Origin: Spizellomyces punctatus DAOM BR117 | Taxonomy: Eukaryota; Chytridiomycota; Chytridiomycetes; Spizellomycetales; Spizellomycetaceae | Length of the DNA stretch: 64,000 bases | Direction: 5' to 3' | NCBI RefSeq assembly: GCF_000182565.1 | Contig: NW_015971537.1 | Coordinates: forward strand, 965,299 to 1,029,298 | In this document: piece by piece, positions 22,327 to 45,657 of the stretch | How the letters are laid out: every line of letters begins with the position of its first letter | Position numbering within the stretch: position 1 is the first letter of the stretch | The notes under the pieces: generated by a model | Told to the model about the DNA's origin: nothing | Seen by the model: only the letters and a program-made list of their open reading frames with translations | Databases searched by the model: none | Program-made: the position numbers and the translations under genes

Positions 22327-22947
22327 ATACGTTCCGTCAACCCAAACGCACTCGCGATTCAGATGTTGACATCAAACGCATGCACCGAACACATTTCATA
22401 ATCCACTTTGTTGTTCTCTGCTTCGGACCACACATACTATCATCAGATAGAGCTTTTAGTGTCCATCCTCCTTGCTTGTACTTTTTACTTTTGTAGTGGA
22501 ATTTAGCTTAGTTTGGTTGTTGGTTGGTTTTATTACTTCTTGTTCTTGCTTTATGCTTTAGTCTCCCAAAATGTGCATAGTGTGAATATGTTGCCAAGAT
22601 CTGTCTCGTAAAAGTTTGTATGCTCAGCAATAATCTGAGCTTTTGATTTAGTTTGCACGGCAGCTATGTCCTGTGTTAATCCTCCCATCCTTTCTGGACC
22701 ACAACCGAATTATGCTCTGCCAATTGGTCACACTGGGATTTTGCGGCTTGCACAAGAGTTTAAAATAGTAACTACCTTCTTACCACCACTTTTGTTAAAA
22801 TCTTGAGTTTGTTTGGGTGACATGGGACGCAAATGCAAACACTAGAAAAGAATTTGGAAATCTTGTATTTGTATTTAACTATTATTGTGTGCTTTGTCAA
22901 AGACTCTTTGCATGTGAACGTCGTTCCGCTTTGTAGAACAAGCTTAA
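22327..22947. other. 3' flank of the secreted gene and left flank of the Fanzor element
   Basis: AT-rich and non-coding. It ends with AAGCTTAATATA just outside the inverted repeat. No gene recognised. Confidence 0.4.
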
Positions 22948-22949
22948 TA

Positions 22950-22979
22950 TAGTGCGGAGCCGATGGGTATTGGCACTAG
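22950..22979. repeat. Terminal inverted repeat, Fanzor element (left; 3' of the gene)
   Basis: Begins TAGTGCGGAGCC and ends TTGGCACTAG. It differs at one position from the inverted complement of 25051-25080. Confidence 0.92.
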
Positions 22980-23060
22980 CACCCGCACCAGGGATTGAAC
23001 CGGCGACAACCAGTTCGGAAAAGGTAATCTAACTAATCTACGCTACGGCTGGAACACCCC
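22980..23060 (-). ncRNA. Candidate omegaRNA (Fanzor guide RNA) 3' region
   Basis: TnpB and Fanzor guides are known to derive from the element end 3' of the nuclease gene and to run out into flanking DNA. This segment overlaps the Fanzor stop codon (23038-23040) and reaches the terminal repeat. Its block 22986-23023 is kept at 34 of 38 positions in each of the two short elements that otherwise lack Fanzor sequence, as expected for a functional RNA rather than leftover coding sequence. On the minus strand the block ends GGTTCAATCCC, resembling a Pol III B box. The 5' end of the RNA cannot be set from sequence; the guide would start beyond 22950. Confidence 0.55.
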
Positions 23061-24915
23061 TGCTGAACACTTTTGGTCTACCGTGTCCATCTAACATTGA
23101 TTGCACGATCATCAGCATGTTGCAGGTGCTCAGCGTGTCCCTGTTCCAGTAGCGCATCGTCCAGGCTTGCTGACAGTTAGGGTTGGTACAACCCAGCAAT
23201 CCATGGACTTTTTCAATCTTGCCTTCGCGACGGCGCCAAGGTCTTGAATGAGGTCGTGTTTTGAAGCCTTTTTCAAGGAAGTCAGCGGATGAGGCCAAAC
23301 AGTGAGGGCAGACAGATGAGGTCTTGTACTCGTCGAGAAGGAAGCAGTTGATCCTGTTGCGCTTAAAGAGGGTGCGCCAGCCTTTCGTCTTTGATGAGGT
23401 CTGAAATCTCGCAGTTCGACCGGCATCGCTCCAATCTCCCATCACAATGGTAAAGTTCCCAAACTTGTTGTGCATGTTGGATATGAGGTCTGATTCGCTC
23501 TTCTGACGGTTTATGAATGCGTGCCATTTCCATCGCGTGTGGGCAGGGTGGGAGTAGAATTCCTTGCGACGATCCGAATCTGCGCGGCGAACAAGAAGGT
23601 AGCGAGTAAAGTCCATGAGGTTCATCGTCTTGTGGCTTGGGATACGTGATTCTATGAGGTCAATTCCCGCTTCCTTCTTCATCTGCTGTCGTTCCTTTCG
23701 CTGCCGACGGCTGCCTGTCTCCATGGCTCGCTGGTTTGCGGTGTAACGGAACGTTGTACCATTGCTGTCTTGGCAGTAGAGAATATCGCGCTTGTTTGGG
23801 TCAATGACGACAATGTTTTCTGCTGCCCGACAAGCAGGTAAGTTTTTCTCCATGTATTGCACTTTAACTTCGTCCTCTAAACTCTTTGCTGACTTTCTCG
23901 CTCCCTTTCCATACTTGTCTGCTTCTGGGTGCTTTAGGTATACAGACACCGAGGTTCCATCTGTACTGATCGAGCCTTCAAACTGCATACCGCGGCGAGA
24001 CCGAAAAGCCTTGTTCCGCAGGTTGCACACGCGCAACCATAAATCGACCTTTTCGACAGTTTCCGCTTCTCGTCGTGTGATGCAAAGGATATGCTGGTAC
24101 AGGATGACGGTGTCGATGCGAATATGGGACTGCATCAGAGACCGACGAAGAGGTATTGCGCTGAACCGACGGAAGCCATGTCGTTCATACAGCACAGAGA
24201 GTTTGCAGTAAGCAGGAAAGAAAGCGAGAGGGTCAACAGCAACCGAATATGCGAGCGGCTGGTCAGAAAGGGGAATGAAGGACCACATCTCTTCTAGAAG
24301 CTCACTCTCCTCAGCAGTCAAGTCATCCAGTGACTCGGGCATGACATCAAAAAGAAAAATTGACTTCAAGTAGCGAAGACGAGCAAAGAAAGCTTTCCGC
24401 GCATCGCTTTTCAGTGGCAGTCGCCCCCGTCCCTTCACGTTGAGCCGCAGATTGATATACCGGAGCAGCATCTGCATGAAATGCTCTTGAATGTTGACTT
24501 TCAGGTTTGTCATCATACTCGCTGTCAGGTAATTGATTGACTGCTGCTCGCCTCGTAGATTTGGGTGAATGAAGCCGACGATTTGGCAGTACCGACGAAT
24601 GTATGGCAACAAGCATCCGCGTAGTGCCTTCTTTGCTTCCTTTCTTGGATGCCAAGCCTCCCCCTTGTTGAGAAGATAGAGAATCGCTTCGATTGTATCT
24701 TCATTTACCGTGGGAAAGGTTGGTGCATATAGGATGTAGAATTTGAGAGCGTGGGAAGCATGGTCAGCGAGTTGATGGATGATGGCGATGTAATCTAGAA
24801 GACGCTGCCGGTAGGTCTCATTAGGCAAGAAAGCTTTTGCAAAGGAAGTCTTGTTGCAGGTATGTAAGGTGGGTTTGTCGAGTTTTTCAAGCTTTTGCTT
24901 CTTTTTTGGTGGCAT
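23038..24915 (-). CDS. Fanzor, eukaryotic TnpB-like RNA-guided nuclease
   Basis: Programmable DNA endonuclease family related to TnpB and Cas12. Single exon, 625 aa, in a neighbourhood of intron-rich genes. The N-terminus MPPKKKQKLEK is a basic, nuclear-localisation-like stretch. RuvC-I is NIVVIDPNKRD (catalytic Asp). The usual RuvC-II glutamate position reads TIVMGDWSDAG, without Glu. A Glu appears ~38 residues later in FLLDEYKTSSVCPHC, matching the displaced catalytic glutamate described for Fanzors. The zinc finger is CPHC ... CTNPNC, and RuvC-III is YWNRDTLSTCN (Asp ~593 from this start). A frame-extending ATG exists at 25002, but a TATATAA at 24968-24974 lies between the two, so I favour 24915. 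All catalytic and zinc residues are present, so it looks functional. Confidence 0.93.
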   Translation of the reverse strand: MPPKKKQKLEKLDKPTLHTCNKTSFAKAFLPNETYRQRLLDYIAIIHQLADHASHALKFYILYAPTFPTVNEDTIEAILYLLNKGEAWHPRKEAKKALRGCLLPYIRRYCQIVGFIHPNLRGEQQSINYLTASMMTNLKVNIQEHFMQMLLRYINLRLNVKGRGRLPLKSDARKAFFARLRYLKSIFLFDVMPESLDDLTAEESELLEEMWSFIPLSDQPLAYSVAVDPLAFFPAYCKLSVLYERHGFRRFSAIPLRRSLMQSHIRIDTVILYQHILCITRREAETVEKVDLWLRVCNLRNKAFRSRRGMQFEGSISTDGTSVSVYLKHPEADKYGKGARKSAKSLEDEVKVQYMEKNLPACRAAENIVVIDPNKRDILYCQDSNGTTFRYTANQRAMETGSRRQRKERQQMKKEAGIDLIESRIPSHKTMNLMDFTRYLLVRRADSDRRKEFYSHPAHTRWKWHAFINRQKSESDLISNMHNKFGNFTIVMGDWSDAGRTARFQTSSKTKGWRTLFKRNRINCFLLDEYKTSSVCPHCLASSADFLEKGFKTRPHSRPWRRREGKIEKVHGLLGCTNPNCQQAWTMRYWNRDTLSTCNMLMIVQSMLDGHGRPKVFSRGVPAVA

Positions 24916-24967
24916 TGATGATATCTGTGGGAAAAGATGAAAGCCTGGGAAAATGGGCGACGACAAC

Positions 24968-24974
24968 TTATATA
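24968..24974 (-). promoter_or_regulatory. TATA box of the Fanzor gene
   Basis: TATATAA on the minus strand, about 55 bp upstream of the ATG at 24915 and inside the element. It would place transcription start downstream of the alternative ATG at 25002. Confidence 0.5.
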
Positions 24975-25050
24975 GGATTTTTTGGATCAAACCATAGTTC
25001 ATGAGTCTAAATCGAGTAAAATTATGATTAAATTGGTTGGAATCTATGTA

Positions 25051-25080
25051 CTAGTGCCAATACCAATCGGCTCCGCACTA
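25051..25080. repeat. Terminal inverted repeat, Fanzor element (right; 5' of the gene)
   Basis: Begins CTAGTGCCAATACC and ends CTCCGCACTA, followed by TGGAAG. On the minus strand the flank therefore reads TTCCATA into the element. Confidence 0.92.
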
Positions 25081-25406
25081 TGGAAGCTGTCACAAGATTA
25101 CGTCAGCTTCAATCTCCGCTGTTCGCCACGGTTCATGCTCCGCGTACTAAAAATAACAACAATATTATGACTATCTTTCGCAGAGCCCCACGGCTCTGTC
25201 AAACGACTAATAGTTTGGCATACTTATGTGGCTTCAAATTACCGGAAGAACTTCGAAACTTCTGTCCGCAAGAGCCTTCCGAGCTTATTCATTCTAACAG
25301 TGGCTGGTCTCTGCTCCATGAGCAACTTTTGATTCTTGTTCTGAGCCCAGCAATATTTAGGGCGAACGTCTGAGTCTGTCTGTCGTTAGTGATCCAAAGA
25401 GTCTGC
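25081..25406. other. Upstream region of the RAX1-like gene
   Basis: 325 bp between the Fanzor element and the RAX1-like start. It has short frames only and no recognised element. It must contain the promoter, so the insertion lies close upstream of it. Confidence 0.4.
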
Positions 25407-36860: not shown

Positions 36861-36896
36861 TAGTGTAGAGGTGACAGAAAATGGCACTAGCTACTA

Positions 36897-36934
36897 CACC
36901 AGGGAATAAACCGGCGACAACCGGTTTGGAAAAG
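36897..36934 (-). ncRNA. Candidate omegaRNA-like block in short element A
   Basis: 38-bp block kept at 34 positions with the Fanzor element's 3' end, at the same distance from the terminal repeat. The B-box-like stretch is altered here (GGTTTATTCCC). Confidence 0.4.
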
Positions 36935-36938
36935 CTAA

Positions 36939-37338
36939 CTAAGCTACTACTAGGCAATTATACACGCAATACGTAACGGTTGGTTCTAACCGGATAATTG
37001 CCCTCCACCACACGCGGTCCCTACTAGGCCTTGATCCAGAACTCTTGATGGCATTGAAGCCAGACTCTTGCATCCAGGAGCGAATCGACTGGGCAGCGTC
37101 ACAAGCCAGAGGATGTTCAGTGACAAGGCTTGGAGACTAGAGAAAAAAACTGCATGTCAGAAGATGACCCGATGACAAGAAATGCAAGAAATGCCATCGA
37201 TACATACCAACCAAGCTCAACTAATGTGGCAGCATAATAGTAGGTTTTGTTATCAGATCCGATTGGTTGCCACTGGTTCTGGTCACGGTTGCTGTCGGGC
37301 GGTCGAGGTCCTCGACACCACCACATCGGCGTTCTCAT
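36939..37338 (-). CDS. 110-aa element cargo protein, copy A
   Basis: Not recognised. Exon 1 37338-37204 (45 aa, starts MRTPMWWCRGPRPPDSN) and exon 2 37136-36939 (65 aa plus stop, starts SPSLVTEHPLACDAAQSIRS) join in frame across a 67-nt intron (GTATCG...CTAG). It is rich in Trp, Tyr and Arg, with DRVWW and YYYAATLVELGWY. The second copy at 44617-45004 has exactly the same exon lengths. The intron between differs greatly in sequence and length (67 versus 55 nt) while the exons stay close, with a mix of silent and replacement changes, which supports translation. A TATAAAA lies ~120 bp upstream. The stop sits just inside the omegaRNA-like block, as in the Fanzor gene. Its function is unknown. 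Confidence 0.6.
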
Positions 37339-37456
37339 GGTTGACCGAGTCGCGATGAGGTTGCAATGTGGGTCGCAATGAGAGTTGTGCAGATGCAGAT
37401 GCTTTGAGAGTCGAGGATGGGTAAAGAGGAAAGAGGGAAGAGACAGAAGGCTCCCC

Positions 37457-37463
37457 TTTTATA
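37457..37463 (-). promoter_or_regulatory. TATA box of cargo gene A
   Basis: TATAAAA on the minus strand about 120 bp upstream of the cargo ATG. It is kept in element B at 45109-45115. Confidence 0.5.
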
Positions 37464-37620
37464 GACCTTTGGCATGCGCCTCACCGCAGTTTAAAAAAAA
37501 AACATTAGCATGCCACACCAATCTGAGCGATAGATGGGGGTTCTCATTATGCGATATGATTAACCGGATTCATCCGGATAATAATGAGTCCTAGTGCCAT
37601 TTTCAATCGCCTCCACACTA

Positions 37621-38545
37621 TGTGATGTGCTTATGTAATCCAGCCCATCCAATTTCAATTCTGCCTTTTACGACACGCATGGTTTGCTTTTGTGGTGAAC
37701 TCACTACGACTTTATCCGCCTCTCCAATTCCCAACGTGATCAGCTGTGTGGGGAGTCAAACCACATGCTAAAAGGGCCATAGCAACCAAAGTGTGTGCAG
37801 TGTGTGTGTGTGTCGATACCGTTCTTTTTTTTCCTTTAAAATGGAGAGATCATTCATCATCATCATCATCATCTTCATCATCAGCTGTGTTTGGGGTCTT
37901 GACTTGCTTTTCCTTTTGCCTTTAAAGTAATTACATACATTATCATATGGCTCCCCCGCTTTCTCTTTTGTACACACACATTCAAAAAGGAAACACACAC
38001 TCATTCCCCCGTTCAGCTTTTTTTGGTGGTTGGGGGCGGTTCAAACTTAACAACGGCTACTTTGGAGAGAGAGACTGCGCCCCACCGCCCAAACTAGAGG
38101 CGATTTTAGGCTGACTGTTCAAACGGACCCTCGTTGAACCGCTTTCTCGTCGTCGTCGTTTTCCTTTCATCTTTGAGACGCGACGGCAATTCACCTGTTC
38201 TATTTAGGTACGTTATCCACACATGGGATTTAGCTTGGAAGGAGGCTTCTACCTATTGGAAAAGATGGAATTTACACGACGGGGGCGTGTATTTTATCTT
38301 TTACATTGGCGTCCCCAAAGGACCAAAATATCCATTAGGAAAAAAAACAAAAACGAGAGCGGAAAACCGCGTAGGAAAAGCTATATACGACACTTTTACT
38401 GACACACTTACACACACACATAACTTTTACACATACTTACATTGCTCTTTTCTTACTCTTTGACATTGACTTGCACAATGCAGACAAACCAACTGTACCC
38501 ATTGTCGAACGACCATCCCTCATCTTCCAAGTGTGCAATTGCGCC
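37621..38545. other. Upstream region of HPC2, with CAT microsatellite
   Basis: A (CAT)n-like run lies at about 37853-37885. Near 38205 there is a TTTAG-GTACGT donor-like site, and 38400-38480 is pyrimidine-rich, ending in GCAG. That fits an intron whose last exon would open the HPC2 coding frame upstream of 38546. Confidence 0.4.
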
Positions 38546-44399: not shown

Positions 44400-44473
44400 G
44401 CCTCCTTGGCTCAGTTGGTTAGAGCGTCTGCCTAGTAAGCAGAAGGTCCCGCGTTCGAATCGCGGAGGAGGCA
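44400..44473 (+). tRNA. tRNA-Thr (anticodon AGT)
   Basis: A complete 74-nt cloverleaf without intron. The acceptor stem GCCTCCT pairs with AGGAGGC, followed by the discriminator A. The D-arm holds GGCTCAGTTGGTTAGAGC (A box). The anticodon stem TCTGC/GCAGA encloses loop CTAGTAA, anticodon AGT at 44434-44436. The T-arm is CCGCG-TTCGAAT-CGCGG (B box). A TTTT run at 44496-44499 can end Pol III transcription. CCA is not encoded, as expected in eukaryotes. Short element B starts 65 bp downstream. Confidence 0.97.
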
Positions 44474-44499: not shown

Positions 44500-44574
44500 A
44501 CTCCCGGTGCCAACATCAACAGGCGGCGTGTTCTTTGCTAGTGTAGAGGTGACAGGAACTGGCACTAGCTACTA

Positions 44575-44612
44575 CACCAGGGAATAAACCGGCGACAACA
44601 GGTTCGGAAAAG
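44575..44612 (-). ncRNA. Candidate omegaRNA-like block in short element B
   Basis: Same 38-bp block as in the Fanzor element (34 of 38 positions) and element A, at the same place relative to the terminal repeat. Confidence 0.4.
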
Positions 44613-44616
44613 CTAA

Positions 44617-45004
44617 CTAAGCTACTACTAGGCAATTATACACGCAATACGTAACGGTTGGTTCTAACCGGATAATTGCCCACCACCACACGCGGTCCCT
44701 ACTAGGCCTTGATCTGGAACTCTTGATGGCATTGAAGCCCGACTCTTGCATCCAGGAGCGAATCGACTGGGCAGCGTCACAAGCCAGAGGATGTTCAGTG
44801 ACAAGACTTGGAGACTATACATGCATGTTAGTGACAGAATAACATGAAAAGAGATGATGCCATTGGTACATACCAACCAAGCTCAACTAATGTGGCAGCA
44901 TAATAGTAGTTTTTGTTATCGGATCCGATTGGTTGCCACTGGTTCTGATCACTGTTGCTGTCGGGCGGTCGAGGTCCTCGACACCACCACATCGGCGTTC
45001 TCAT
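44617..45004 (-). CDS. 110-aa element cargo protein, copy B
   Basis: Exons 45004-44870 (45 aa) and 44814-44617 (65 aa plus stop) match copy A in length codon for codon. The intron is 55 nt with GTACCA donor, a CTAAC branch-like site and ATAG acceptor. Replacements relative to copy A include Arg/Ser and Thr/Asn in exon 1 (DSNSDQNQW, SDNKNYYY) and Gly/Arg and Arg/Trp in exon 2. Several other changes are silent in this frame, but would be replacements in the alternative exon-2 frame, which argues for the frame given. Function unknown; no recognised domain. Confidence 0.6.
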
Positions 45005-45108
45005 GGTTGACCGAGTCGCGATGAGGTTGTGTGGGTCGCAATGAGCGTTGCACAGATGCTTGCGAGTCGAGGGATAAAGAGGAAACAGGGAAGAGGGAGC
45101 AGGTCCCC

Positions 45109-45115
45109 TTTTATA
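45109..45115 (-). promoter_or_regulatory. TATA box of cargo gene B
   Basis: TATAAAA about 105 bp upstream of the cargo ATG, in the same context as in element A. Confidence 0.5.
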
Positions 45116-45272
45116 GACCTTTGGCATGCGCCTCACTGCAGTTTAAAAAAAAAACATTAGCATGCCACACCAATCTGAGCGATAGATGGGGGTTCTGATT
45201 ATGCGATATGATTAACCGGATTAATCCGGATAATAATGAGTCCTAGTGCCATTTTCAATCACCTCCACACTA

Positions 45273-45657
45273 TGTATGGATGGTTGTTGGCATTCAGGCC
45301 ATGTATATTTCTTACTCTGTACAAATACAAAAATATCGCAAAGAGAGTGCAAAATGGGATAGGCATACTAAACATAACCCGGACGACCCCGCCAGATATT
45401 CTTGTTTTTTTTTGCGTTTTCTTCGCCTTATGTCCAAAGGCCAACACATTCATCTCATATGTAAAAAAGTACGACATCTACCTCCGACAATGGCCTATGT
45501 TACATCCCAGAATCATATGCACGATGATCGTCGTCTAAACTCATAACCGCATGTGATGTTTTTGCTACAGATGTTCATCATACAGCATATTGAGCAAATC
45601 AGATACAAATATATACAGAACCCCGGAATCCTCACCTCACACCTTTCCAATTGAAGT
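45273..45657. other. 3' region of RPB1
   Basis: Short spacer between element B and the RPB1 stop, without a supported gene. Confidence 0.4.

Follow-up and report, generated by a model that had tools for sequence, protein, structure and literature searches.

The closest described relative of the locus analysed here is SPu-1, the prototype Fanzor family, for which 17 full-length copies and putative TA duplications have been described (Bao and Jurka 2013, PMC3627910). SPu-1 is also the source of SpuFz1, the Fanzor whose structure has been solved, and 42 Fanzor and 134 ghost loci have been counted for the family (Saito 2023, PMC10432273). According to the same work, SpuFz1 binds an RNA consisting of a scaffold and 14-15 nt of flank, and cuts DNA that carries CATA beside the match to the guide. 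The biological role of Fanzors is called unknown there.

Two other systems are instructive. Tc1/mariner elements with Fanzor1, for example PGv-1, share with SPu-1 the TA target and the Fanzor1 cargo, but PGv-1 encodes its own transposase, while SPu-1 is described as encoding none (Bao and Jurka 2013, PMC3627910). TnpB of IS200/IS605 is likewise an RNA-guided cutter with RuvC and zinc finger, takes its guide from the flank and has a proposed role in retention; it differs in being prokaryotic and a smaller protein, with a pseudoknotted RNA and a TnpA partner (PMC10432273, PMC10711439).

The window studied here is a stretch of 64,000 nucleotides from the genome of Spizellomyces punctatus DAOM BR117. 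It contains an intact copy of SPu-1, an already known family of non-autonomous DNA transposons of this species. We hypothesise that this copy was moved in trans by a transposase and has been kept and copied by its own nuclease, and we consider this explanation probable.

The element and its place in the SPu-1 family

The complete element occupies positions 22950-25080 (Table 1). The first-pass annotation had described inverted repeats of 30 bp matching at 29/30 positions, and comparison of the outer 30 nt of the two ends agrees with this, the repeats having a mismatch at one position; the inverted-repeat arms are 34 nt long and 94% complementary. A 25-base pattern of the terminal repeat, with up to three mismatches allowed, was matched 73 times across the genome, while its reversed control had 0 matches.

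The annotation of one intact Fanzor frame also stands. There is a single long open frame on the minus strand (23041-25002, 654 aa in the list of open reading frames), which ends at a stop codon at 23038-23040. The ATG at 24915, giving a protein of 625 aa that begins MPPKKK (24915-23041), is most likely the true start, because TATATAA lies 59 nt upstream of it and because the same MPPKKK motif opens the reference SpuFz1 gene. A TATATAA-type motif is present in 16 of the 19 Fanzor left ends examined. Only three other frames of at least 80 aa lie between the repeats (98-139 aa), and all overlap the Fanzor frame. The statement that the element is without its own transposase is therefore borne out at the level of the list of open frames within 22950-25080: it contains no DDE transposase frame inside the repeats, and neither of the genome's DDE_3 matches falls there.

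Table 1. Features of the SPu-1 copy and of the two ghost elements in the window.
Feature	Positions	Strand	Basis
Terminal inverted repeat, right end (3' of Fanzor ORF)	22950-22979	+	sequence, arm comparison, genome count of terminal repeats
Putative target duplication TA, right end	22950-22951	+	sequence
Predicted 15-nt guide TATTAAGCTTGTTCT, from flanking host DNA	22935-22949	-	published register
omegaRNA scaffold (predicted), 74 nt; stem 1, 6-nt linker, stem 2	22950-23023	-	numbering of PMC10432273
Fanzor1 ORF, 625 aa + stop (open upstream to 25002)	23038-24915	-	
TATATAA, TATA-box-like, 59 nt upstream of ATG	24968-24974	-	
Terminal inverted repeat, left end (5' of ORF)	25051-25080	-	29/30 against other end
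TA at left end	25079-25080	-	sequence
CATA (flank CA + TA), equal to published SpuFz1 target-adjacent motif	25079-25082	-	
Ghost SPu-1, no Fanzor ORF, CATA at left end	36861-37622	-	
Second ghost SPu-1, CATA at left end	44539-45274	-	

The link to SpuFz1 is provided by locus L012 on contig C17. This encodes a 638-aa protein that is identical to the chain in PDB 8gkh (SpuFz1) over residues 2-638; its flank continues with the native target found in the substrate oligos of PMC11423790, and its scaffold fits 18 of the 18 checked letters of the published omegaRNA (PMC10432273). Since L012 corresponds to the SpuFz1 chain and has the matching flank and omegaRNA, the window copy can be assigned to SPu-1. 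The active Spizellomyces Fanzor that had been cited as a precedent is thus relevant, but is not merely a precedent: that gene and the window copy are paralogues, apparently in the same genome. The two share repeats, ORF, omegaRNA scaffold, CATA and the lack of a transposase, and differ in that the window copy has four changes among 48 checked residues, a scaffold one G shorter, and its own guide.

A six-frame search of the genome (24.0 Mb, 29 contigs) gave at least 69 Fanzor pieces, many of them with stops. Over 292 bp the right end of the window copy shows 100% identity to the right end of L033 (C5:368580-368701), with different flanks, and over 153 bp it is identical to that of L031 (C12:137959-138080), again in a different flank; in neither case does the match continue upstream of the shared right-end stretch. 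The 292-bp identity with a differently flanked copy suggests recent movement.

Two of the other pieces, L028 and L030 (C9:617499-619415 and C9:622459-624375), are adjoining diverged copies, 61% and 58% identical, with stops; SPu-1 ends were not recognised in their fetched flanks, and they are perhaps an older subfamily. In four further places, pieces of the SPu-1 ORF lie on one strand with gaps of approximately 39 kb (C9:314780-355809), 20 kb (C4:454959-477071), 24 (+ 4.6) kb (C16:381637-412784) and 15 kb (C8:958058-975824). These spans may be single copies split by large inserts; Ty3 inserts have been reported (Saito 2023, PMC10432273).

Conservation of the Fanzor protein

The window protein matches the SpuFz1 chain (8gkh) with a phmmer score of 1209.7 bits over residues 28-654, a full-length match that establishes its homology to Fanzor1. 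Scores against the Fanzor1 proteins of Parasitella and Guillardia are 157.2 and 40.9 bits, and Pfam models give no match to the window Fanzor. It aligns with the protein of L012 end to end, and no catalytic residue is lost in this alignment. The RuvC aspartates and four-Cys zinc finger proposed in the first-pass annotation are supported: D383, N385, E541 and D606 of SpuFz1 are all kept, and the finger is present as CPHC ... CTNPNC.

A set of 48 residues named in the SpuFz1 structure paper was checked on the same alignment. The window copy keeps 44 of these, including all six of the TAM contacts checked. The differences from SpuFz1 are that R419 is replaced by E, R550 by H and M607 by T, and that S598-G599 is missing. 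Both S598 and G599 are missing in 22 of the 27 loci in which the C-terminal region was read, the window copy included, while four loci retain the two residues and in L015 there is one residue more; the loss is therefore a trait of the subfamily.

Thirteen of the 30 loci examined, counting the window copy, are intact in the sense of having an open frame of more than 600 aa. Pairwise comparison of the window copy with the 12 others gives dN/dS of 0.11-0.18 at dS of 0.29-0.74, values that all share the window copy and so are not independent. The silent sites are much changed and the protein is kept, and these pairwise comparisons point to purifying selection.

The missing S598-G599, the changes R550H, R419E and M607T, and the stops in many of the 69 genomic pieces could be taken to mean that the window copy only looks intact and is in fact a dead passenger. 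We regard this as highly unlikely: dN/dS is well under 1, and the right end shared at 100% identity over 292 bp with the differently flanked L033 suggests that it moved recently. The window copy could be functional.

The omegaRNA, its guide and the ghost elements

The predicted scaffold extends from beyond the stop codon across the right end of the element, and its predicted fold has two stems, as in the published structure. It is one nucleotide shorter than the reference copy (74 against 75 nt), with one G fewer in stem 1; the same G is absent in 16 of 25 aligned right ends and in 39 of 41 ghosts. For stem 2, 86 right ends were collected, and six were dropped (end or linker not recognised), giving 80 different loci (35 Fanzor, 45 ghost). 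Counted over the eight outer pairs, 629 of 640 cells hold a standard pair, compared with a mean of 580.5 and a maximum of 596 when the 3' arms were reshuffled in 2000 trials, a count to be read with the caveat that the 3' arm doubles as the terminal repeat. The changes in stem 2 occur mostly between a few related groups, and therefore count as few events.

Polymerase III promoters have recognised A and B box consensus sequences, and in some copies sequences overlapping the stop codon, such as TAGCGTAGATTGGTTAG...GGTTCAATCCC, have the order and spacing of such tRNA-like boxes. The omegaRNA could therefore be made by polymerase III, and among the 35 Fanzor right ends a B box is found in 32 and an A box in 18. 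However, both boxes occur jointly in only 16/35 Fanzor and 1/45 ghost right ends, and ARAGORN and Rfam give no tRNA at the predicted box region. TATA-like motifs, on the other hand, are present in 16/19 Fanzor left ends and in 21/24 ghosts (the entire fetched ghost stretch being scanned), so that transcription by polymerase II would be the simpler reading. Although attractive in some copies, polymerase III is rejected as a general mechanism, and we consider it very improbable.

The ghost Spu-1 elements described by Saito (2023, PMC10432273) share ends, omegaRNA scaffold and CA with the window copy. They differ in having no Fanzor ORF, and in that the TATA-like motif (21/24) and an open frame with a splice-donor-like end (15/24) precede the omegaRNA. 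The two ghosts in the window follow this plan: in each, a TATA-like motif is accompanied by an omegaRNA scaffold and by a short open frame whose end is a splice-donor-like GTATGT. A first exon-like frame could be called in 19 of 24 ghosts; four of the others have no splice-donor-like site and one has no start. Fifteen of the 19 frames are open and end in the same phase, at 125, 128 or 131 nt, and four are broken. The pooled pN/pS is 0.35 in the nine frames of 131 nt, a value based on few changes between related sequences. Conservation is lower in the second part of the frame, and the ghost peptides match no family in Pfam. The frame may be a small gene belonging to the ghosts themselves, which is a lead and not a demonstration.

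It may be added that one locus (L089, C6:278339-278547) appears to be a fusion of two right-end stretches of ghosts, lying on opposite strands, and that a tRNA-Thr (agt) gene lies at 44400-44473 of the window, with 65 bp between it and the second ghost's right end.

The genome was searched for targets of the predicted guide using 18 bases, CATA joined to bases 1-14 of the guide, and up to three mismatches were allowed. This gave 25 places, against 8 for the reversed control, and none had fewer than two mismatches; the nearest CATA-flanked match elsewhere has two. Among the matches listed, the guide is intact at its own locus only, where it is preceded by ACTA and not by CATA.

Stem 1 has 182 matches in the genome (89 + 93), compared with 0 and 1 for the controls, and this is far above the number of full Fanzor genes. 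It could be explained if the nuclease worked mainly in trans for other mobile elements, the omegaRNAs of Fanzor copies and ghosts forming a shared pool of guides; a role of this kind was suggested by Saito (2023, PMC10432273). The ghosts' still paired stem 2, and the CA that they have in common with Fanzor copies, would suit the same idea. Against it, the purifying selection suggested by pairwise comparison of the Fanzor ORF fits a benefit in cis, and the guide has no CATA-flanked match with fewer than two mismatches elsewhere in the genome. A predominantly trans role is in our view unlikely.

The one-sided CA and a candidate transposase

The left end of the element carries a marked bias. Among 60 loci scanned there are 23 Fanzor copies with a readable left end, and in 22 of these the TA is preceded by CA, L023 having TA instead. 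The same CA is found in 21 of the 21 left ends found among 24 ghosts, and TA comes next in 20. Of 37 distinct right ends of Fanzor copies only 5 have the mirror-image TG, as do 3 of 39 among the ghosts (40 were fetched, one without a readable end), which is not clearly above the 7% background. The CA itself has been reported, as conserved nucleotides upstream of the 5' repeat (Saito 2023, PMC10432273); the present analysis adds the counts and shows how the right end differs. A transposase acting on near-symmetric repeats should not favour CA on one side, and we therefore read the CA as a trace of the nuclease motif. The bias would fit nuclease-driven retention.

The CA could also be no more than the outer border of an asymmetric left end, and would then be uninformative on the nuclease. 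TA flanks both ends of the element. As a test of the TA duplication, flanks were joined for 20 insertions, one in the window and the others at further loci, and compared with sequence amounting to a small fraction of the genome. No empty site was seen, which leaves both the duplication and the role of the CA putative. This result, and the description of the CA as conserved nucleotides upstream of the repeat (PMC10432273), favour an end sequence. However, one of the 23 copies (L023) has TA in its place, the terminal repeats are otherwise near-symmetric, and SpuFz1 strictly requires CATA (PMC10432273). We therefore think it rather doubtful that the CA is only an end sequence.

The explanation that we prefer, movement in trans followed by retention through the nuclease, would operate as follows. 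A transposase supplied in trans would move SPu-1. The occupied site would be spared by the nuclease, because the bases before its guide are ACTA. An empty allele, which would present CATA and the guide sequence, would be cut and then repaired from the occupied copy, and in this way the nuclease would both keep and copy the element. This bears on the role of Fanzors: here the ORF appears to be kept by purifying selection in a multicopy element without a transposase, and a CA bias at one end only is the trace expected of nuclease-dependent retention. The best candidate for the transposase would be a single-copy element of Tc1/mariner type on contig C3.

Saito (2023, PMC10432273) reports that no transposase flanked by Spu-1 repeats was found, and a literature search, limited in reach and with supplements outside it, met no report of a transposase with SPu-1 ends. 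A six-frame search of the genome with DDE_3, in which only the candidates picked by the search itself were scored and which therefore gives a lower bound, found two matches, on C3 and C5, and only that on C3 is an open frame. It has 405 aa, matches PF13358 (DDE_3) at 47.9 bits, and contains a helix-turn-helix domain. D162 and D242 are invariant in nine sequences, and the E of (N/D)P(V/I)EL is present in eight, the ninth having a gap; by comparison with the family these are presumably the catalytic residues. The element is 3030 bp (3.0 kb) long with 38-bp repeats that are 89% alike (C3:531538-534567; L101:2039-5068), and is single copy as judged by its ends. A second ORF (L101:2903-3637) has a weak likeness to SUKH-3, below the cut-off.

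Compared in register from the first base, the ends of the C3 element match the ghost left end at 22/30 positions, the ghost right end at 19/30 and the Fanzor ends at 19-20/30. When the letters were shuffled 100,000 times, the best of eight comparisons never rose above 21. A match of 21/30 can arise by chance in about 128,000 positions; the 22/30 therefore owes its weight to the register of both ends, which is set by their being the repeats of the transposase element. The element also stands between two mirror-image ghosts, about 655 and 165 bp away. From the 182 stem-1 matches genome-wide, two such neighbours would occur by chance at about 1e-5, but this estimate is post hoc, and clustering of transposons has other causes as well. 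The flanks are TTA/GTGTG and CAC/TTA, with no CA at either end and no clean TA duplication; a 3-bp TTA duplication would fit them better.

On these grounds the C3 element is a candidate helper for SPu-1, although likeness of ends does not show binding by the transposase. That it moves both SPu-1 and the ghosts, after which Fanzor keeps only the insertions next to CATA, is a tentative proposal, quite possible but falling somewhat short of probable. If true, a single genome would hold a three-part system, comprising a transposase element, a nuclease element and guide-only elements, and this would answer the question raised by the lack of a Spu-1-flanked transposase in Saito (2023). With a candidate transposase named, the movement of SPu-1 and the effect of Fanzor on the survival of insertions become testable.

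Other candidates were set aside. The DDE_3 match on C5 (C5:992487-992582) is a short relic, and its neighbourhood (L102, ghost excluded) contains no 30-mer matching the SPu-1 ends at more than 19/30. Transposase matches found by tblastn on C2, C1 and C7 have stops and no SPu-1-like ends (best 18-19/30), and are decayed relatives of the C3 transposase. PF03184 and PF01359 had no match in the genome, and the control genomes were equally silent, so that absence is not shown. In the window, position 54825 matches the SPu-1 ends at 21/30, and is taken as chance, there being no partner repeat on either side. Viral contigs were searched and gave no relative of either Fanzor or the C3 transposase. Relatives of the latter are found in Phlyctochytrium (Phlyctochytrium arcticum), Lobulomyces and Clydaea, which we take to be chytrids.
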